In this document: piece by piece, positions 21,001 to 64,000 of the stretch
Numbering within the stretch: position 1 is the first letter of the stretch
How the letters are laid out: every line of letters starts with the position of its first letter
Assembly: GCA_023078555.1 (NCBI GenBank)
Contig: CM041196.1
Span: 2,976,001-3,040,000, forward strand
DNA from: Ulva prolifera
Taxonomy: Eukaryota > Chlorophyta > Ulvophyceae > Ulvales > Ulvaceae
Reading direction: 5' to 3'
Length of the DNA stretch: 64,000 nt
Position numbers and translations under genes: made by a program
The notes under the pieces: model-generated
The model's database searches: none
Told to the model about the DNA's origin: nothing
The model's input: the letters and a program-made list of their open reading frames with translations, nothing else

Positions 21001-24000
21001 GAGCCGGCCGGGTACGGCAGGCGGTCGTCCTGGCAGTCCACCGTCGCCCCCTGAGACGACCGGTGCCTGCATGCATCCAGTGATCAATCATGCATGTGCG
21101 CACTTGCACCGCGACTGCCAGTGCGTTGGGAGGCGAGCGACGACGTGGTGGCAGGCGCATATGCATGCATGTATGACGGCGAAGGAACAAAGCAGGAACG
21201 TGTAAACCATTTGGTTTACAGTAAACCGTTTACAGTAAACCGTTTACTGTAAAAATGTGCAGCCCTCAGCGGCAGAGAGGGCTCCTGACTGGAGCCCATG
21301 CATCCAAGCAGAGCGCAGCACAGCACAGGAGGGAGCATCAGAGCGCAGCACAGCACAGGAGGGAGCATCAGAGCGCAGCACAGCACAGGAGGGAGCATCA
21401 GAGCGCACTTGAAGGGGTTCAGGCGGGCGTAGCCGACGAGCGACACATGCATGCAATGGTGCAGAGTGAACGCCGCGAGCGTCTCGTTGCCGCGGTACAT
21501 GTCGTCCGCGTCCGGGCCGACCGCCGCAGCCCCGTTCACGCCGTGCGAGCCGCCGGCACCGTTCACACCGCGACTGTCCACGCTGCTGCTGCCGCCGCCG
21601 GCGCTCCACGACATCCCCCGCCCTCCGAGGCTGCCGCCACCCCCCAGCACGTCGGAGGACGCCGCAGCGGAGGAATCGTTGAGGGCGGCGATCATGGACG
21701 CCTCGATGACGCGGAGGATGACGTCAACCGCGAGCACGTGCCACTCAAGCGGGAGCTCCCCCGTCCACACCCAGAACGGCTGCATGCGGTGCGCCTCCAT
21801 TGTCTCTCGCACGGAGTTGAGCGCGGCCTCGATCGGCCGCTCGTGCGGTGGCGGCGTAATGGGGGAGCGCCCGGCGAGCGTGTCGACGGAGCTCGCATGC
21901 ATGCTGTCGGCGGCGGTGGATGGCGCGGTCGTTGCGCGGCGGGTCGGGGAGGAGAGGGCGAACGGCGACGCGTCCACGATCTGCACACTGCGCTCGTCAG
22001 CCACTCTGCTGCGCGCAGGTGTTTGTCGCAGGTCGCAGTCTGAGGTTCCCCACATTCCAGATAGGACAAAGGAAGAGGCACGCAGTTGCACAGCCGTCTC
22101 ACACTCCTCCCATTCTGCCTATACATGCACATGCTTGTCCGCATGCAATCAGCAGTGCAAGCAGCTGCCTGCCCGACACTACTACGTTGTTGACAACCAC
22201 ACAGTCGAACAAAGTATGTACTTCTGTCGAGCGCCTCAAGAGGCGGAGGGTCAGGCAGCGCACATTCCGTGGAGACAGGTGCGGTTGCTGCAGCCCGAAA
22301 TGCAACGTCTGAAACGGGTTGTGCCCCCTGTGCATGTACTGCCCGACCGGAGACGGCTCAGCACCGCCAGCGCTGCTGGACGCCTGCGATGCGAGGCCGC
22401 CCGAGCTGCCAGCGAACGCGCTCACCCCTGACGACTCCATACCGGCCGTGCCGGAAAACAGAGCCGCGCCCATGCTCGCCTTGGAGCTGGAGGCACTCGG
22501 CAGGCGCAGCACCTGCTGTGCGGCCCCAGCAATGCACGGGGGTGCAGCCGGCGGTCGGGGGGACGGACGGGCAGCATAGGGTACACTGGATGTGCCGGCA
22601 AACACTGAATGCGGCGAGGCGCCCGGCGGCGGGCGGGAGGCCGGGATGGGGACGGCAAGGGACGGCGGAGCCGCAGCAGCGTGATGATGTGGCGGCGGCG
22701 CCGCCTGGAAGCCGTGGATGTCGGCCCTCCCGCCGCGGCCGGGGGCCGGCCGCGAGGGCCGCGACTGCCGGGCCGCCGCGGCAGGGGCCGGCGAGTGCAT
22801 CGCAGCGACGTCGGCCCACCGGCTCGGACTGGTTACAGCGCCCACAGTGTGCGGGCTCGCGTGCCGGGACGGTCGCTGCGGCCCCGCTGCCACGGCACCA
22901 CGCGGGCTCGCCGCCGGAGAATGCACGCCATTTCCTGTGGCGGCGGCACCGCTCGACGCCGTGCTCAATGGCAACGTGGTGTCCACCGGGGGCACACAGA
23001 ACACGGCTTGCATGTCGCGGGTGCGGTGATCAGGCACCTCTGGCGCTTGTGTGGCGGCGGAGTTGCCTGCCGACTGCGTCCCATTCTGGCGGTGACTGTT
23101 GCCTGCGACCGGCTCGGTGTGGTCACCGTGCTGAGGTGGCACCCTGGGAAAGGAGGCAGTTGCGGCCAGCGCATCGTCATCGACCCCATCAATGCTTTCA
23201 TAGGCATGCGCAGCGGCCACGACATCCGCGGCATACGACGTGCCGGGGAACGACTCCCAATGCATGTGCTCCGCGACCGAAGCCGCAACCGCAACCGGAG
23301 GCCCATTTCCTGTGGACATGGAAGCTGGGATGTCACCTTCATCGAGGCTCATGTCTCCTACGAGCCCGTCCGGCACCCGCACGGACGACGTCGCCGAGGC
23401 GCGCCCGACGGACGCTGCATCGGCGACTGTGCCGTTGGCGCTCGGCGGCGGCGGCAGGATGCCCGACGGTAGCGCGGGGCCGGTCGGCATCGGCGATCCG
23501 AACGGCGTGTGGCTGGGCGGCGGCGCGAGGAGCGTCGCCGTGTGGACGGCGGCCGGGACGGGGGCCGCCGGGGCCCCCTCGGCGACGAGGTGATTTGTTG
23601 CCATGAACGGCTGCGGGGCGCCAAACCCTGGCATCGCGACGAGCATGGTAGTCGGAGGGGCGATGCAACTGTTTGCGAGAGTCGGGTCGGTGACCGGGAT
23701 GGTGGTGGTGGGGATAGGGGCCGTCCCGGCGAAGAACGATGCGGAAGCTGCGGGGAATGCGAGTGGCGTCGGGGCCTCACTGGAGGCACTGCCCATCGCT
23801 GTAAGGCGTGGTATATGAATGACCGGGGCGGCCACTGTTGCAAACGTGGCAACGGTCGTGGGTGTCACTGGCGTAATGGTCGCCACGTCAGCATGGGCTG
23901 ACGAGGCGTCATGCTGCGACGGGTGCGATTGTCTGTCATGGCCTGGCATTAACACGTCCTCAGCCGGGCGCACGGCAGCAACAGCCGCCCCTTGAGCACT

Positions 24001-27000
24001 CGCTTGGCTCGCAATCAGAGGCGGCGGGAAGGCGGCGAGCTGCGCTGCAGCCGAGGTGGCTGGAGAGGCAACGGCTGGCTGGTCCGGTAGCGCATCCAGC
24101 GCCGCGGGGGCTGCTCCAGCAGCCCTTGCGGACTCTACAGGAGGGGAAGATGAAGGCGCAGGGGGCGCAGCAGCGGCTTGAGCGCTTGCCATGTCAGCTA
24201 CGGGCTCTCCTGGCCGCCCTGAGGCAGCGTCCACAGCGTCGAGCGGCGGCGTGCGCAGCGTGGGCGCGGCGATGACGGTGTGGGGGCCCCGGTCGCCCTG
24301 GGCCGCAGTGTGCGGCTTGCCACCGGTGTCGGCGCCTTTGCCAACCCATGGCGCCGAGCGCCGAGAGACGGCCGCCCGCTTCGGCGCTCCCGTCATGTCT
24401 GATGCTCCAGCAGCCACCTGTGGTGCTGCAGCGACAGCCTGCGGCGCTGCCGGCAGCAGCAGCGGCTGCTGCACCGGCGGCGCGGGGGCGACGGGGAATG
24501 TCTGCGAGGCCACGCACGCGTGTGCGAGGACGTGTGGCGTACTGGCTGTGACCCCAGCCGCATACGCACCAGCCGCGTCCGCGCCCGCTGCTATGGCGGG
24601 GCCGGTTTCCACCTGCGGCGCATGCACTGAGCCGTAGCTGCGGCTGCGTCGGCGTGAAGTTTCCGTGAGGGACCGTGAGAACCCCCGCTCCCCACCAGCC
24701 GGCTTTGTCACCGTCCGCCGCTCGTTGCCACCACCGGAGGCCGCAAACCGCATCGCCGCCCCCGGGGGACCGTCCTTCTGCCGGGGCTCAACAGAGGATG
24801 GCCGGGACGGCCTCTGTGGCCGGCGCCGCGGCCGCACGGGCGCCCAACCAACCGCCCCCGGCTCCTCGTCATCGTCCGGCATGTCTGTCGGCGCCGGTGG
24901 CTGCGGTGGCGGCGGCTCGCCGCGCGCTTCCGCCGCGATCGGCGATCCCGCCTTAACGGAGTCTGCGGGCACAACGGCCGAGACTGGCCCGACCGCACTG
25001 GCGTCCGCAATGACAAACTGCGGGCTGCTTGCGCCGGCAAACTGCGGCACGGCGGACGCGACATCGCTGGTCTCGGCCGCAGGCACGTCGGCGTGTGCGG
25101 GTGGGGGTGGGGGCTCAGCCGGTTTGGCCTCCTTGGCATCTTTCGCCTTTTTGCGCCGCCGCGGCTTGGAGGAGGTGCCGGCATGCTGGCGGGTGATCAT
25201 CGCCGGGTCAGTTGCGCTGGTGCCGGCAAGAATGAGAAACATGTTGTTTGGCCGCGCGTCCGCCTCCGGGGCCTGCATGCGTGCGCGTGCCTGCGGCGCT
25301 GTGCAAAGGCATATGTGCATGCGAATGATTCTGCATGCGAGTCAATCTGCTGGTGTGATCACATCGAGATGCTGACACCTCCGCACGGCTCTCGAGAGGC
25401 GGCCTGAGCATGCGGAAGACCACCTGCGAGAGCAATCTCATGGGGTGTGGTAGGATGCACGTTTGCTCAGCATCGTCTGGCGAGTTCAGGTCAACACGGA
25501 AGTTACACAGTACCGCTGCGCAAACAGGTCAGCTGTGTATCGACAACGGCAGCACAGAAGCTTGCAATCTCTGGCCCACGCTAGATGAAGCCGCCGGGGA
25601 TGTGACGGCCAGAAAAACCTGTGTCCGCCAGACCACCCAATCGCCGTTCAGGAAGTGCGGTGCGCACACGCACACACCACACGACCAAGTTTGCTTGTAC
25701 AGCATATTAGACTGATAGACAGCTAGCAGTCGCTGTGTATGTCAAACGAGACATCGCCTCATCACCCTCGTCAGCCCCAAAGGATCTCACAGCGCTACAG
25801 CATGCAAAGACGGCGTTGTACCACATGCATGGCAAGCACAAGGCAGGGGCGCACCCGTGTGGCAGCAGAGGCACTCTCTACAGATCCAGACTGCTGCATC
25901 GCCGGCGGCGTCACGGCCACGGGTGTAGACGTACCCGAGCGCCTGCGGGGAGCCGGCAGGGGGGGTGGCGGCGGCGGCGGCATGAAGCTGCCGCTTGACG
26001 CGGGCCGCGACAGAGACCCCTGAACGGACTCCGGCGGCGTGCTCGCCGCCGTCATGAAGCTGTCGGACTTCTCCGGCGGCCCGGCCGTGCCGACGTGTCC
26101 GAGGCGCAGCGAAGACGCCCCCGGGGACGCGGCCACGGTGCGGGGGGTGCCGGCCGCCGAGGGGGTCTCCGTCAGGTCCGTGCGGGGGGTGTCCACGGGG
26201 CGGGGCGGCGTGACGAGCGCCGGCAGCGACGGGTGCGAGGGGCTGTTCGAGATCTCGAGGTCGGACGCCGACGGCAGGCGGTGCACGGAGCGGAAGGCCG
26301 GCAGCGACATACGCGTGGACCCCGGGAGGAGGGGAGAGCTCGCGGTACAGTGCGCGGCGCCGGCAGACGAGTTCATGGAGCTCGACACTGCAGGAACTGC
26401 AGGTGTTGAGGGCTCTGGTGTCTGCCACACCAGGATGTCGTCGCGTCGATGCAATGCAGCTGCCCTGTGTCAGAGTCGGTGACGGCAGGCAGCAGACCCG
26501 CTCAGCTCGACTTGACGGCGATACCTTGTTACGCTGAGGCGCAGTGGCGTGCAATGCGTGGAGCTCTAGAGTCGTTCGCGTAAGCTTGGGGGCAAGCATG
26601 GACGGTGCTGAGGTGGCATAGCCCGTTTGTGTATCACAGTGCGCTCCAAGGAGTCAGGCAGAGAGAGAGGTAGCACGAAACGAGCCACAGACTCCACCAT
26701 ACGCGTCCACGGCATACAACAAAAGCAGTGCAATTGTGTAGCTCTCAAAACAAAGCAAGAACGGAATGTCACGCAAATCGGGCGTGCGTGACGCTGGCAA
26801 TATGCAGCCGAGGCTTGCGTGGCATGCATGGCGACATCGATGAACGTAAGGCTGCAGAGCGCTTCCAAGACAACAGTTGCAGTTGTGTCATCGTATAATG
26901 CGTGTAAGTGCGTGTGGCGGTAGTGCATCGACTGGCAGAGCTCTGCAGAGGTCGCACGTCGTCTCGAGTAATTGACAATTGGTTGTGCTTTCTGTGTCGT

Positions 27001-39126: not shown

Positions 39127-41948
39127 TCACCGCCGATGACATACCGCCTTTGCTGCCACGAGGCCTACAGCCCCAGCAGTCAGCAGCCAGCCGCACCACC
39201 GTGGCCTGGTCCGGCCATGACCCTCTGTCTGCGTACCAGCATCCACTGCCGCAATACAGCTGCTGCGCACGCCCTGCAGCGCTTCTGTCAGCTCCACAAA
39301 CTCCCCCTCAGCCCCAGGCAGCAGCTCAGCGTCCAGCACCTCCAGAGGCGATTCACGTACCTCTCCACCCATCACGCCCATTGGACCCCCATCTGAACTC
39401 CCGCAATACCCCATGGTGGCTCCCTCCGTGTCCGGCCCAGCATTCGGCCACGTCCCGGCATTGTACATCGCAACACAGCTGCTGCTAACGCCCCGCAAAA
39501 CTCCGTTCACCACATCACATTCCCCTTCAGCCTGAGGCTGCAGCGCAGCGCCCAGCATCTCCTGAGGCAGGTCTGGCGCTTCCCGTGCACCGAGGTCCTT
39601 CACCCCCTCCCCCAGAGTCCCGCACTCTTCACCGGGAGCTCCATCTGTGTCTGCAGCCGACAGGTGCAAACATGTTGGCCGCGGCGAGAGCAGCAGCGGC
39701 GAGGCACACGGCGAGTCCGCGTACAGCCAGGGGCTATCTGGGGAGCCACTCGAGACCGGCGAGTGGCCGAGCAGCGACGGCACGGACGTAGAGCTGCGGC
39801 CGGCGGGTGTCCATGAGACTAGTTCTAAGTCGTCCGCAAGGTCAGCAAGCGAGACCCGCGGAGTGGCGACGGCAGATAGGTGCCGCGGCAGCGGCGCCAC
39901 CTCCACCGCCGCCGCCGCAGCGGTGTCGGCATCGGTGGATCCACCGTCATGGTGCAGCTGCTGTCCGGCAGGAGTGTCCGGGAGGGGCTCCGGTGCGGGC
40001 ATCATTGCCGCGAGGGACGGCATCGGCTCGAAGGTGTCCGGCAGGGACTGAGCAGCATCGCTGTCGCTGCAGTGGAGCGATGCTTCACAGGTGGCGCTGG
40101 CTGCGGCGGCGTCAGCTGTGTCGACGCGGGCCGCGGCTGCAGATGCCGGTGTGAGAAGCATGGCGGGGGCTGCCGTCGCGAGGGATTCATGCTTGCATGA
40201 GGCGGCTGCGCTGGTTTCAGACAGCGACGTGTCACGTGCAGCAGCGTCACCCGACCGGGACGTTGTGAGCATTGGTGCGGCATCGAGAGCCGGGGCAGTG
40301 TCGGCGGGGGCACCTGCGGACCTGCCGGTGTCATCATACACCATGCTATCGGCATCAGTGGACGCAGGCGCGCCCTCAGCTTCCTGCTCTGCGGCCCAGC
40401 TGGCAGCGGCGTTGAACAGTGGTCGCAGCGCGGAGCGGCCACCGCACTTCAGGCGGGCGCACGCGGCGGTCGCTGTGGTGACCCAGGAGCGGATGTCGGG
40501 TCGCTCCTCTGGGTCAACGCTGAGTGTGGCAGAGACGAGCCAGCGCAGGTCGTCGTCGTAGGGAATGAAGTCCTCCACTGCATCCTCGTCCTCAGAAGTG
40601 GGAGGCATCTCGCGGAGCTTCCGTGGCGGGAAGCCGATGGTGGCCTCGGCGATAACCATCGCGAAGGAGTAGGCGTCCATGGATGTGTCGATTGCGACTG
40701 GCTTGGTGACGCAAGCGGCTACCTCAGGCGCGAGGTAGGAAGGAGTGCCGACGGGGAGAGTCATCAACTTGCCGCGGCGTTTCTGGACCGCGCTGCCGAA
40801 ATCAATGATGACGGGCTGACCGTCGTCATCGAGCATTATGTTCTCAGGCTTCACATCCCTGTGCACGATGTCGTGCTGCTGCAAGAACATGAAAGCGTGC
40901 GCGAGAGAGAGGATGAGTGGCCACAGGACTCGCAGAGGCACCAGCGGCTGCAGCTCGTCGTCGGAGCCACGAAGGAACTGCATCTTGTACCAGCTCACAG
41001 CATCACGCAGGCGGAACGGGTAGCGCTTTGTGAGCATTGCCGTCGCCTGCTGGCCATCGGACGCCCAGGCCAGCACCTCCAGAACGTTCCGGTGCCCTTG
41101 CAGCTGCATGAGAATTCGCAGCTCTTTGCAGAGCGAAGACGACATGCCTTCAGCCGCGCGCTTCAACGCTCCGGAGATGACCTCGCCAGTCTCAGTCGTG
41201 ACGGTCGCAAGAGACACCTGCACGAATGTGCGGTGCCGGTGATAGCAGGTCAGTGACCCTCACAATTGGTAGGCTTCGGGACTCCGAGTCCACAGCAACG
41301 CTGAAGAACCACAATTGATGCCGATTCAAGCAGACAATCACTACCATGAAACTGTAGCCTGAAGTATCTGGACATGCACACATACTGCCAAGCTGTGTTG
41401 CTGCTGGCATGGGCATCAGTCATTGTCGAAAAAAATGACAAAGGCACATCTCGTAGGTACAGTGAACTGCAGCAAAGTTCAGCCCATTCTAGACAGTAAA
41501 GCCTCGGCATGTGCTTGAGGGATGAAGGCATTGCAGATTGCCATGTCACTCTACAGGGCGTTGATAGAGGTAAGACTCTCAAGTTGCACATGATCGAAGT
41601 CTCAAGCGAGAAAATTGCCGCAAAAGTACAGTGGAAATGCTGAATGAGATGCCACAAGATTATCGTGCCAGGTCATGTGCCACTCCATGCGGAATGCAGA
41701 TGGTGCCAACAGTGAGAGGCTGAGGCCAAACGCCACCGCATGCAACATACCTGACCAAATGATCCTTCGCCAAGGAAAGAGTGCTCCGTGACATCGCCAC
41801 TACGGCCATCTTTGTCAACTCCGTGTCCGAAGCGAGGGACGTAGATGCATTCCTCAATTGAGGGCTCTTCCCCCTGGTTGCTGGAAACGCTGCTATAGGG
41901 CGTGTGGCTGGAGACAGCCGCAGAAGCTGATGTCGAGGAGCCTTCCAT
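39127..41948 (-). CDS. Protein kinase with acidic repeats and predicted C-terminal membrane anchor
   Basis: Two exons, 41948-41751 and 41217-39127, join in phase 0 and give 762 resid­ues from the ATG at 41948 to the stop at 39127; the frame is also open upstream of that ATG. The kinase domain is complete: Gly loop FLGEGSFGQ-V across the splice, ATP Lys in GALKRA, catalytic loop IVHRDVKPENIML near residue 185, IIDFGSAV, GTPSYLAPEV and MDAYSFAMVIAEA. After about residue 340 follows an Ala/Ser/Asp-rich tail. Near the end two similar units appear (QAEGECDVVNGVLRGVSSSC and GAEGEFVELTEALQGVRSSC). The last residues are CGWLLTAGAVGLVAAKAV then CHRR, a short hydrophobic segment with a basic end, as in tail-anchored proteins of plastid or mitochondrial outer membranes. 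The substrate is unknown. Confidence 0.88.
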
Positions 41949-57775: not shown

Positions 57776-58367
57776 CAGGTGCGCCGCTTGTCCAGGCTTC
57801 CGCCTCGGAGCATGCGTCCGTTCACAATCTCATGGCCATTACATCATTGTGCTCAGCACAACGTGCTCAGGTCTCGTGGGGAAAGGCAAACACAATGCTG
57901 CGGGTGACAGTGACGGCAAACAAGCTTAGTACAACCTAAATATCAGCAAAGTTCTCATCAAATTGCCACACAAGGAAGCTCACTGCACTTGGCGGTGCTG
58001 CGAATGGCCACTCATTCAAACAGAGCTGCCCTTCTCAGAAAAAACGCCTGGGATACACCACACGAAATTCCCCGCACCGTTCGAACGTAACGATACGGGC
58101 CACCCGTACCATCCCAGCCTCTCGGAAAAATTCCTGCTACTACTGCAGCCCACCACTGCGTGGTAAGGCCTGCTCGAACACCACCACGCCTCGAGCGACA
58201 AGCCCCGACCACCACATGCCAATCTCCATGTGTGTCAGCATCAAGCGGCCTTCATCTTCTGCATCATGATGCCGATTAATGCAACCCAGCAGGCCGCGGC
58301 TCCTGCACTTCCCGCACCGGAGTGCTGCTGCAACAGGCGCCCCCGCACGGCCCCCGCACGGGTCCGC
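57776..58367. other. Spacer, no supported gene
   Basis: This lies between the 3' end of the GT2-GH9 gene and the unresolved 5' part of the unknown gene to its left, both on the minus strand. It should hold that gene's promoter and first exon. I saw no coding frame with good borders. Confidence 0.4.
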
Positions 58368-61300
58368 CTACACGCTGACAAGCGGCCGCGGTGCCGGCGG
58401 CGGCGGCGGCGGCACGCGATCCGCCGGATTCTCCTGCGGCGTGTACACCCCGGCAAACCCTGGAGCCCCCCGCGAGACGTCTGTCGACGGCCCGAGCTTG
58501 AAGGCATTCGGGCGGCCGTTGCGGCACACGCGGGCGCGCATGAACGCCGTGCCCCGCGCATTGAGGCACTGCGTGTGCTGCACGGACTGAGTGTGCACCG
58601 CCGCAAACAGCAGCGGCACGGCAAAGTTGTTCTCCAGCGACACGACGGTCGTGTTGCGGCCGCGTGCGTCCTGCGGGAAGTCGTCATTCATGGGGTTCCA
58701 CAGCAGGGCGCCATCGATGGAGTTGACGTCGGGGGCGTCCTGTATCGCGACACGCACGGAGCAGGCGCCGTCGCCCGGCGCGGGGCAGGAGGCTCCGCGG
58801 TGCCACGTGCGCGTATAAGTGCGGTTGTTGTAGCCGATGATGAAGGGCCGCGTGGGGAAGAGGCCAGCGACGTGGCCGCCGAGGAGGTAGCGAGCCTGCT
58901 CCCCGGCAAAACACTGCAGGCCTGCACACAGCCGCCTCAAGTCTCAACTCGAGGGTGGCAAATCGTGCGTGCGTTGGGAGATCTGATCGCAATCTGCGCA
59001 CCACCTCAAGCCCCTGCAAGAGGCTGGCTTGCAGAGCTTGCCCTGCACGAGGCTGAGACAGAACGGCTCGAATGCGAAACGAGGTCAGCTGGCATTGAGG
59101 AAAGAGTCAAACAACAGGCCCGACGCCCCCGGACCAAAACTATCTGCCCATGCTGCAGTCGTGTGCGTAACCTCATCGCCGGCGCGGCATGCATGCACGT
59201 AGTGCGGCACCGCACCTCTGACCATCGCGAGGTCATCCGCCAGGAACTGCGACTCGCGGGCGCTGTGCACGTACAGCGCAGCCATCGCGGCGGCGCCGGC
59301 CGTCGAGCCGAGGTGCGGCGTGCCAGGGAAGAAGGCGCGACCGGCGCGCGTGTACTGCACCGCCTCGTCATCGCACAGCCAGTCCCAGAGGAAGGACTGC
59401 GCGGCGGTGTGGTACTGTGCGTCCTGCGTGAGAGTCGCGGCGTGCGTGACCGCGAGGTTGGTCATGTAGTCCCACGACAGCCCCGGGAAGTCGAGCTCGG
59501 CATACCTGCACAGCACGCAGCATGGCTGTCGAAACCAGGGCTACTCGGCAGACTCTCCTCATGCGCAAGCTGCGCCAGATCACGGAGCTCGATCACACTT
59601 TGAGTTGTCAACGTCCTCTGAAGGGTACTGCTCAGCACATCCAGATGTACTTCACCACACTCTCACGTGCACAGCAGGCACAGCAGGCACAGCAGGCACA
59701 GCGTGTGTGTGTCTGACCAGTGAGACATGGCAGGCTGTCGCTGACAGCCTCAGGCCGCATGCCAGCTCATGCATGTGCCGGATGCACGGTTCACCACGGC
59801 GGCGGCTGAGGCGCAGGGCGGAGCAACGCTGCTATGGCAATATCAAACGCCACCACTGTGCCTCGTACTCTGTATGCGCTGCAAGACACACGGGGCTGGA
59901 GGCGCAGTCGTGGTACCATCTCGGAAGGGCGGAGCTGCAACGCAGCATGCATGGGCAGTCAGGAGCTGCGGTCCCGAGGAGCATGGGCAGTCGTTCATGT
60001 GCTAGATACGAGGCATGCGGCGGCATCTGGGCGGCGGCATCTGGGCCTGAAGTGAGGTTGTCAACGGCCAGAGGCCAGAGAGTGGGGCGCACGAGAGACT
60101 CATCGTGACGGACATCGCATCCTGGTAGTAGGTCTGGTTGAAGGTGCGGAAGCCGGCGGTGGAGGCGCGGTACATCCACGTCGACGCCCAGAACAGGTCA
60201 TCTCCGTACCTCGCCGTGGGGTACAGCTCCTCGATCCCGGCGCTGGCCGCGGAGCCATTGAAACCCTCCTGGTATAGGCCCGGCGAGAACATTGCACTCT
60301 GGAACAGCCGATGTGCCTTGTCCACCTGCAGGCGTCACCAGCGGCTCATCGGGCGCAGCTGGCGCCACAGTAGACATGCGCACAGCTAGCATCAGGCCTC
60401 GCGTGAGCAATGGCACTCGGCCAGCGCTAAGGAAAGCCGTAATTGTGGCTTCTGCGGGGTTTCTCGCTGCATCTCTGGCATGCCACGGTGCTGCCAACAC
60501 CATCTCCAGGTGCTTGATAAACCTCGGGGCTACCAAGCAGCGCACAGCGATCACAAAGACTCGTGTTGAGCGTGTATTCAGGCTTCAGTCGAGGGCCGAC
60601 ATCGCACGGTCGAGATCGCACGCAGTCGGCCTTCTGCCAAAGGGACATGCCGTGCCGGTGGGTCTGACCGAGTTTAGCGGTGGAGTGGGAGGCGCAGGCT
60701 GCCGCTGAGTGTACAACCAGCAGAGCTGAGCCCGAAACTCACGCTTCGCGCCTCCAGAGCACCGGCTACGGCTTCAGGGTGCTGTGAGGCCGCAAACGTT
60801 GTGGCCCCCGCGTCCGAAGCAGCGCATGCGGAGCAAAACAGCATGCTCTGCCCTTGAGGGGGGGAGGCGTGCGCACCATAGTCTTCGCGATAGTGCGGTC
60901 GATCTCCCCGTACTGCTGCAGCGCGAGCGCGCCGGCAGTGACCGCGGCGACGACCTGCGCCGCGAGGTCCGACGGGGACTCTGCCAGCCGCATGATGCCG
61001 ACGTCTGCGCCAATGCCGCGAAACTCGGTGACGTCCTCCGGGCGATTCCAGCTCTTCCTCTGCTCGAGCATGTTGCCAACCTACGAACCGCCGTACGCAT
61101 CAGGTTTGAAGACTCGGAATTGGCTGGCGCAGCACAAGGAGGCGATGAGGCATGCATGCATGTGGTGGCAAAGCGAAGTGCGATGCCTAGGCCCCCGGCC
61201 GGAGGCGCCGTGCGGATCACGGGCGAGACGCAGGTGCCGCATGCATGATACAGTCCAGGTTTCGTAAGGACTTGCCGGCTCACGCGCAGCAGCAGAACTG

Positions 61301-64000
61301 GGCTTCTTGCACGTGTGGGACATCGTGATATTCCGCATGATTGCACACATGCAATTCCGTGCGTGTGGACACGACAGCCGCTGCAGTGGGCCACTCTGCC
61401 ATTGAACCCCACCCCCGACTATCGTGCGCGCCGGCGTTGAGGCAGAGAGTCTCGCACCACATAGACGAGCTGGTCATTGCCGGAAGACTGCAGCCGTGTC
61501 GGATCAAGGTCATCTTGCAGCGGAGTCACAACATACGCCTCCTGCATGTAAAGTGCGCCGTGCAGCAGCAGCGCGGTCGCGTCCGCCTGCAGCTCCGGCG
61601 CCGCTTGCCAGAAGTCCGGGTACTCCAGCATCGCCCACGCGAGCATCGACGTCGTCACCGCGACCGTCCACGTCAGCTTCACCGGCCCCGCCTCTCCCTC
61701 CGTGTAGAATCCCCCAGACAAATCCACCGTCTTGAAGAACTCATCCACACGGTCCGTCACGGCGCCCTGGGTGGCGTTGGTGAACGTGATTTGTACTGCC
61801 GAGAACTGCCGGCCAGAGGTGGCGCGCCAGCCGACCGGGAACCCTGCTGGGATGCTGCCGGAGCGCTCAGCGTTGAGGAAGCGCAGGGCGAGGCGGCCGG
61901 CGCGCGCGTAGTCTACGCGGCGTGGGAACAGCAGCGGGATGAAGCCAAGCGCAGCCGCGGAGGCGGCGCCGGAGGCCAGCATGCAGAGCGTGCAGAGGCG
62001 GGAGAAGGCCGGGCCGCGGCCGAGGCGCTCACGCGCAAGGAGGAGCAGCGGCGGCGCCGCGTTGATCGCGACGAAGCAGAGCGAGAGCGCGCTCGGGACG
62101 TCAGCGGCCGCGCGCAAATGCATGCAGCCACCGGCAAACGCAACGGCAGACAGCAGCACAATGGCGATGGGCCAGCGGGGGGGCTTGAGGGTCCGTGGTT
62201 GGGCGAGGCCGGCGCGGCCACGGGTGCCGGTGAACGGAGTCCCGGTGGCGGCCTGGAGGGTGGTGAGTGAGGCTGCCTTGAGGTCGGGCCACCAGAAGAT
62301 GGAGGCGGCAACGCGGGACAGCCAGAGCGCTCGCAGCTGCTCCAAGCTGCGGCAGCGGAGGAGCAGCGCGGCGCGGAGGAGGTAGTGGCCGGCCATCGCG
62401 GCGACGACGGCCTCGGAGAAGTGCACCGGGAAGGCCCCGGTGATGAGGTGCACGATCGGCACGAGCGTGAAGACGAGCGCCCACAGGCCTGCACACCACC
62501 AGTGGCCACACATAAACAATAAGCCAGGTGTTGTGGTACATCTGTGCGCAATCTTTCCCGGTACATTGGAGTATATTCCAATGTATCCCGGAATATCATA
62601 CATTCGGTTCTAAAGCTAAATCTGCCGCTATGGCATGCCCCATGCACTGCTTGCGGCCAGTGAGTCGTAGGGACTGAAACTGTGCAGGAAGCGCGGGGCA
62701 GGGGGGGGGGCGGACTGGAGGCGAGGGCCTGGAGGCAGCGGCCAGCGTAGGCTGCGCGGTCCAGGGGCCTGAGGCCGGGCTGCAGCAGCGGGCACCGGCG
62801 CGACCAGAACGTCTGCCAGCGGCCGCAGGAGCGGCGGTAGTGCGCGTCCATCACGGTGGCCACCTCCGTGGCGGCGGACATCTCCTCGGGGGCGCCGCCG
62901 ACCGTGGCAGCCTCCGCAGCGTACACGCTCCCCCACCCGCGGCTCCTCTGCATGGCACCAGCCCCGCGTTGCAAGGCCCATCAGTACAGCACAGGTCTGC
63001 AGGTCTTACCTGGGTGTAAGTCCGACGGGTGGAGCGACTGAGCAGCCCGATACTACTGCACGCGTCTCGTTGTGGCGCGATGTGCACTTGGCTGCATCGC
63101 GGGGACGAAAGCAGGCCAGGCGCATGCATGCTGTCGGCGAGGCTGGTGCGTGTCACAAGGACAGCAGCCACGCAGCAGCTCATTTCACGCGGGGGCGGTG
63201 CCGAGTGCGCACCAGGAGCATGCTCAGTTCCCAGTTCTCGTCGAGAGTGCGCATCGGGAACCCGCCGACCTGTCGCAGTGCGCTAGCCCGCAGCAGCAGC
63301 CCGCTGTCCATATCTGCGGAGGCAGCCCCTGGCGCGCCCATGCTGCGGGGCGCGCTGGCCGTGGCTGTGCCAAAGATGGCGCAGGTGCCACCACAGGTGC
63401 GGGGGAACGCCGCCGCACCGATGCCGTCGTCGTGGTCGATATGGCGCAGCAGCGTGGTGAAGAAGGAAGGGGGCAGCGTGTCGCCAGTGGACACGGCGGT
63501 CACGAGGTCGCCGGCGCTGACGGTCGCCTCGCCGCCGCCCGCGTTTGCGTCGGCGTGGTAGATCGCTGATAGCGCGAAGTTCAGCATCTCGGAGCGCGAA
63601 TTGATCACCTGCAATGCAGAGCCTGCGTCGGCGCACTAACAGGCAGCTTGGGGGCCACAGCCACGATCACATGCGCCTGCATTTTATCCTGCGGGCGGGG
63701 GATGTTCAGCTCAGAATCTGGAGTACCGTGGAGTTGGAAGGCCCGATGGGGGCGGTGATGGCTGTGACCGCATCGCCCAACTCGGAAGCCACGTCCACCG
63801 CCACGCTCCGCCCGCGCTCATGCACCGCATCACACGCATGCTCCTCGTCAAGCAGGTACAGCCGGACTTCACAGCCGTCAGGCAGCGCAGCTTCATGGAG
63901 GGAGGCCACCGTCCGCCGCACACTCTCCACGCTGCCGCCGCAGCACGGGACCAGCACGCGCACGGTGTACCCCCGCCGCAGCCCGCACTTGCGGGATACA
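58368..64000 (-). CDS. Cellulose-synthase-like GT2 fused to GH9 cellulase-like domain (5' partial)
   Basis: Eight phase-consistent exons: 64000-63727 (runs off the window), 63608-63213, 62947-62716, 62488-61458, 61080-60877, 60325-60093, 59505-59199, 58913-58368; about 1,073 residues seen. The GT2 part has YTVRVLVPCCGGSVESVRRT, EVRLYLLDEE, SRSEMLNFALSAIY, VSTGDTLPPSFFTTLL, TLDENWELSML, SVYAAEAATVGGAPEEMS and SCGRWQ. About five membrane segments follow (first LWALVFTLVPIVHLITGAF). The GH9 part has YARAGRLALRFLNAERSG, PVGWRAT, DLSGGFYTEGE, SMLAWAMLEYPD, SWNRPEDV, ARYGDDLFWASTWMYRA, FPGLSWDYM, ARYLLGG, FIIGYNNRTYTRTWHRGAS and SLENNFAVPLLFA, then a short Pro-rich end. An odd number of membrane spans would put GH9 outside the cytosol, where a glucan would emerge. 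Catalytic motifs are altered in both halves. Confidence 0.88.
59671..59703. repeat. Short tandem repeat, about three copies of CACAGCAGG
   Basis: Nine-base units AGCAGGCAC lie in the intron between exons 60325-60093 and 59505-59199 of the GT2-GH9 gene. Confidence 0.8.

Follow-up and report, generated by a model that had tools for sequence, protein, structure and literature searches.

The stretch of the Ulva prolifera genome analyzed here comprises 64,000 nucleotides of contig CM041196.1 (assembly GCA_023078555.1, positions 2,976,001 to 3,040,000; hereafter, the window) and holds at its end, on the minus strand, a gene in which a cellulose-synthase-like GT2 half and a cellulase-like GH9 half are confirmed to be joined in one predicted protein. 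The comparisons below show that this gene belongs to a chlorophyte family of GT2-GH9 fusions. Wherever the sites are covered, no predicted protein of this family has the two catalytic Asp of GH9 together or its catalytic Glu, and the clade of the window gene has also lost its GT2 motifs, which are intact in most of the family. We therefore suggest, giving the idea an even chance, that the window copy is a noncatalytic membrane subunit, whose GH9-fold domain would be displayed to glucan produced by active paralogues or a partner synthase.

Manual reading of the strand and scripted joining gave eight exons and seven GT..AG introns, with consistent phase at all seven borders (Table 1), the same single minus-strand chain that had been proposed in a preliminary description of this DNA. 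The only stop is the terminal TAG (58370-58368). Counted from the acceptor of exon A, the protein has 1159 amino acids; its reading frame is unbroken and every splice site is intact. Exon A runs 288 bases beyond the window end (64000) to its acceptor at 64288, as read from the adjoining genome stretch, and a candidate start is the ATG at 64266; a further 5' exon, corresponding to the N-terminal cytosolic exon of relatives, was not found in the 10 kb upstream of the gene. Since most membrane segments and the beginning of GH9 share one open frame in exon D, the fusion does not depend on an argument from splicing. A Pfam search of the joined chain matched both halves: GH9 with 153 bits over profile positions 1-422 of 444, in agreement with the full-length domain described earlier, and Glyco_trans_2_3 with 28.6 bits, barely above the cut-off of 27. 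GH6 was not among the Pfam matches of this chain. Antisense to exons G and H lies a 478-codon open frame (window 58167-59600, plus strand) without a Pfam match, probably a shadow frame of GC-rich coding sequence.

The residues of active GH9 enzymes, two Asp and a Glu, are not present in the window copy, which reads T-E-G-E for D-A-G-D and V for the catalytic Glu. We observed the same loss across the family, here the 67 of 83 chains (P0001-P0078 plus five from this genome) that match a profile built from free-standing GH9s, these being partly its training set. An alignment-free check found DAGD in none of the 67. Both Asp occur in none of the chains covered, and the catalytic Glu in none of the 38 covered; coverage is lacking for the first Asp in 14 chains, for the second Asp in 16 and for the acid in 29, several chains being partial. 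Two E-type matches in the alignment-free check, in P0020 (residue 1171) and in the C4 paralogue (residue 280, in GT2), were judged to be due to chance. In the Coccomyxa subellipsoidea record P0018 the GH9 motif residues are likewise missing and the GT2 motifs intact. The free-standing GH9 L014 of the Ulva genome has canonical DAGD and NEVALDYNA. The window domain retains the GH9 fold; in the family this fold lacks its catalytic residues but has kept tryptophans.

The GT2 motifs mentioned in the preliminary description hold as to similarity, BcsA and plant CESA being the nearest structures for this part, but not as to catalysis: the window copy shows DEE, TGD and DEN at the motif sites and has no QxxRW. 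Two further chains share this state, namely the paralogue L011 (TAD, AEN, no QxxRW) and the database protein P0007 (NAD, ASD, no QxxRW), and all three have DAHYR in the place of QxxRW. Because the loss is common to the three, it is old in their clade. The paralogues L018, L026 and L027 read DAD, TED and QRSRW, the motifs of L018 lining up with those of BcsA, and DxD, TED and QxxRW are present together in 75 of the 83 chains. One or more of these motifs are also missing in the short chains P0012, P0014 and P0078 and in the long chains P0070 and P0076. The last two, which are fused proteins from Haematococcus (P0070) and Chlamydomonas sp. UWO 241 (P0076), are either second degenerate copies or gene-model faults.

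Table 1. Exons and motif sites of the GT2-GH9 gene (window coordinates)
Feature	Position	Strand	Content
Exon A	63727..64000 in window, to 64288 outside	-	two N-terminal membrane segments (partly outside window), GT2 start
First Asp motif, exon A	63861-63841	-	reads LYLLDEE; CDDG in most relatives
Exon B	63213..63608	-	GT2 core
DxD site, exon B	63491-63477	-	reads STGDT
TED site, exon B	within 63245-63231	-	reads DEN
Exon C	62716..62947	-	GT2 end
QxxRW site, exon C	about 62848-62814	-	replaced by DAHYRRSCGRW
Exon D	61458..62488	-	C-terminal membrane segments and N-terminal part of GH9, one open frame
DAGD site, exon D	61703-61692	-	reads TEGE
Exon E	60877..61080	-	GH9 continued (VGN..W.RPED)
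Exon F	60114..60325	-	GH9 continued (DDLFWASTWMYRA)
Exon G	59216..59505	-	GH9 continued (SWDYMTN)
Exon H	58368..58921	-	GH9 end, proline-rich tail, stop
Catalytic-acid position, exon H	58646-58644	-	V in place of Glu, inside RNTTVVSLENN

The preliminary description had called for a search of other trebouxiophyte genomes for the same domain order. Among the matches listed for a database search with L018, which took its words from the first 500 residues and hence mainly from GT2, 56 of 104 proteins have both GT2 and GH9 Pfam matches. Those that bear a name include proteins of Coccomyxa, Trebouxia, Elliptochloris, Myrmecia, Apatococcus, Symbiochloris, Auxenochlorella, Chlorella, Micractinium, Botryococcus (by label), Raphidocelis, Monoraphidium, Haematococcus and Chlamydomonas sp. 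UWO 241. Two of the fused proteins, P0034 (Chlorella sorokiniana) and P0047 (C. ohadii), match PF02782 (FGGY kinase) besides GT2 and GH9, ahead of GT2 in P0034, possibly through a gene-model fusion. We built quick trees, without bootstrap, for both halves. In the GH9 tree, from which 12 of 67 fused and 3 of 67 free-standing chains were left out for too few columns, 54 of 55 fused rows fall on one branch with a support of 99 (Shimodaira-Hasegawa-like approximate likelihood ratio test, SH-aLRT); P0073, a long branch, lies outside this main group. The GT2 tree puts the window copy, as a long row, into a group of 18 fused rows (support 100), and the GT2-GH6 proteins P0075 and P0077 are sister to the green-algal GT2s with a joint support of 92; a long-branch warning applies to the window copy and to this pair, among others. 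Both trees unite the window copy, L011 and P0007 in one clade (99, 100). The GH9 label requires nine changes on the GT2 tree, which implies loss of GH9 or partial records at several points of the tree.

The genome contains at least five GT2-GH9 genes, of which three have intact GT2 motifs and two have lost them. Spliced alignment placed four of them besides the window gene: L011, on the same contig, L018, L026/L017 (C4) and L027/L016 (C3). With the window protein as query, the spliced aligner recovered counterparts of all eight exons in L011, which has one extra N-terminal exon, and in L018 the junction of membrane part and GH9 likewise lies within one open frame. Spliced alignments of L013, L014 and L015 were weak or covered GH9 only, and those of L019, L020, L022 (one strand only) and L023 were weak or partial. 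A scan of genome_contigs with 630 residues of L018, reaching close relatives only, gave eight pattern matches, none of them a relative by tblastn. The GH9 model matches at least 36 places in the genome and the GT2 model PF13632 at least seven; since neither the window copy nor L011 was among the matches of the latter, further degenerate copies may have escaped it. For L014, the closest named relative carries the label Ulvmu1, read as Ulva mutabilis, at 68% identity, which points to an ulvophyte-like rather than a trebouxiophyte source. On L012 (5956-6021, minus strand), a 22-residue fragment is 77% identical to the N-terminal exon of L011, with no extension to a full copy. GH9 matches to roughly the last 65 profile positions recur on one strand at C5:9568015-9644324 (minus), many of them about 10 kb apart, and at C7:3348284-3357857, which suggests a tandem array of GH9 genes. 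Two GT2 matches of equal score, length and open frame (C1:5407552-5408301 and C9:1596164-1596913) represent either a duplicated locus or an assembly duplicate.

We observed differences in conservation between the two halves. Window copy and L011 are identical at 0.51 of positions in GT2 plus membrane part and at 0.68 in GH9 (Fisher p 7e-9, from rounded identities), with rates of nonsynonymous versus synonymous substitution (dN/dS) of 0.65 and 0.36, respectively. The C3 and C4 paralogues show 0.72 and 0.54 (Fisher p 1e-9, from rounded identities). Within this genome, GT2 is ahead in all three pairs without the window copy or L011, and GH9 is ahead in the seven pairs that include either, except for L011 and C4 (0.39, 0.38). 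In a second comparison that included database relatives, pairs of intact-GT2 members are more alike in GT2 than in GH9 in seven of seven cases. Window copy and P0007 share 0.36 in GT2 and 0.53 in GH9. The end branch leading to the window copy has a length of 1.08 for GT2 and 0.26 for GH9; for L011 it is 0.19 in both trees. These comparisons show GH9 to be the better conserved half of the predicted window protein.

The fold predicted for P0002, a relative of the window protein, aligns to BcsA and poplar CESA8. By hydropathy, P0002 and P0018 have two segments before GT2 and four after it, P0007 two and five, and the window copy two and four. Five segments after GT2 would place GH9 across the membrane from GT2, where glucan would emerge. 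An odd number of spans after GT2, such as the about five of the preliminary description, is likely from the count for P0007 and may also hold for the window copy, which has four by the same threshold.

The window gene had been read as a synthase with a built-in trimming or release module, that is, as a working bifunctional enzyme whose GT2 makes a beta-glucan that GH9 trims or releases. The order of domains and the fold fit such an enzyme, and plant hydrolases are tied to polysaccharide synthesis, as in KORRIGAN1 and AtMAN2/5 (PMC13181414). However, the canonical catalytic residues of both halves are missing in the window copy, and the family counts for DAGD (0/67) and the acid Glu (0/38 covered) speak against the proposed module, so that we regard this enzyme as very improbable. 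With both halves lacking catalytic residues, the protein is probably a noncatalytic partner rather than a built-in glucan trimmer. That two adjacent genes were read as one is barely conceivable, given the shared open frame of membrane segments and GH9 start in the window gene and L018 and the 56 of 104 listed matches that carry both domains, some of them labelled transcriptome assemblies. Decay, with the window copy a paralogue without present function, has weight, given a rapidly changing GT2 and an N-terminal exon that could not be found in the 10 kb upstream; its GT2 end branch exceeds that of L011, and the GT2 of L011 and P0007 is not equally relaxed. Yet 1159 codons in eight exons have stayed free of stops and frame breaks with intact splice sites, dN/dS in the GH9 half is 0.36, and the motif loss, shared with L011 and P0007, is old in the clade; we consider decay rather unlikely. 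The protein might otherwise be undergoing reduction until it merely fixes a wall-binding domain of GH9 fold to the membrane, with anchoring the sole role left to the GT2 remnant. A conserved GH9 beside a fast GT2 in the window copy would agree with this, but the DAHYR substitute and much of the GT2 frame are still common to L011 and P0007, and we find the proposal unlikely.

A noncatalytic subunit remains the explanation that we favor. In this family, a BcsA/CESA-like GT2 with its membrane helices would carry a GH9-fold domain across the membrane from GT2, and this domain has probably ceased to act as a hydrolase. In most members, an intact GT2 would work with a dead GH9 placed where the nascent beta-glucan emerges, which may hold, guide or space the chain. 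In the window copy GT2 would be dead too, and the GH9 fold may serve glucan made by an active paralogue. The comparisons establish the fusion, its family, the loss of motifs, a fold kept in a relative and, for the window copy, a GH9 more conserved than GT2; we infer glucan binding, the partner and the role. Several points weigh against this explanation. Loss of canonical residues is no proof of inactivity. In AtMAN2 and AtMAN5, catalytic residues are required for glucomannan synthesis, and the same authors hold hydrolysis to be important in plants, bacteria and Ciona, with cellulose synthesis included (PMC13181414). The dN/dS values come from one paralogue pair only. L011 and P0007 share 0.60 in GT2 (350 columns), 0.50 in the membrane segments and 0.57 in GH9; their two halves are about equally kept, so the reversal of constraint holds for the window copy only, whose fast GT2 may simply be decaying.

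Elsewhere in the window, the minus strand contains a 710-codon open frame that encodes a protein kinase domain (39130-41259) and a 1080-codon open frame without a Pfam match (22102-25341).

The preliminary description knew of no described GT2-GH9 chain; four are described in Coccomyxa (Blanc et al. 2012, PMC3446292), those of C. subellipsoidea having the same domains in one chain as the window gene and a GT2 close to that of tunicates, and the passages on these fusions say nothing of GH9 having lost catalytic residues. The GH9 and GT2 of Coccomyxa and other green-algal fusions cluster with the window gene, but P0018 has the GT2 motifs that the window clade lacks. BcsA and plant CESA, which are not known to have a fused hydrolase, resemble the window protein in the fold of GT2 and the membrane part; BcsA has intact motifs, which the window copy has lost. 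KORRIGAN-type GH9 is a separate protein with one span and an active GH9, whereas the window GH9 is fused and without catalytic residues. Proteins of the KORRIGAN type are membrane-associated and have a role in cellulose synthesis (PMC13181414). In tunicate CesA the synthase is joined to a GH6 domain that lacks the catalytic Asp (PMC10334666, PMC7464555), and the authors of the second paper left open whether this domain has any activity (PMC7464555). The likeness to the window gene is a cellulase domain without catalytic residues on a synthase; the difference is GH6 there and GH9 here, and thus a separate fusion.

In the open-access literature, outside which most subscription papers lie, we found no report of GH9 catalytic-residue loss in algal GT2-GH9 fusions, nor of the double loss, with GT2 motifs gone too, in the window clade. 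The architecture itself is already known. More tentatively, it is possible that a cellulase domain was fused to cellulose synthases on two or more occasions, as GH9 in green algae and as GH6 in tunicates, losing its catalytic residues and keeping its fold, as a recurrent guide for nascent glucan at the channel exit; the window clade would then be a pseudo-synthase that keeps only the guide, a noncatalytic member of a mixed synthase complex. The need for cellulases in cellulose synthesis is an old puzzle, usually explained by cutting. A cellulase fold without catalytic residues on an algal synthase, with its tunicate parallel, makes a noncutting role, the binding or guiding of the emerging chain, directly testable.

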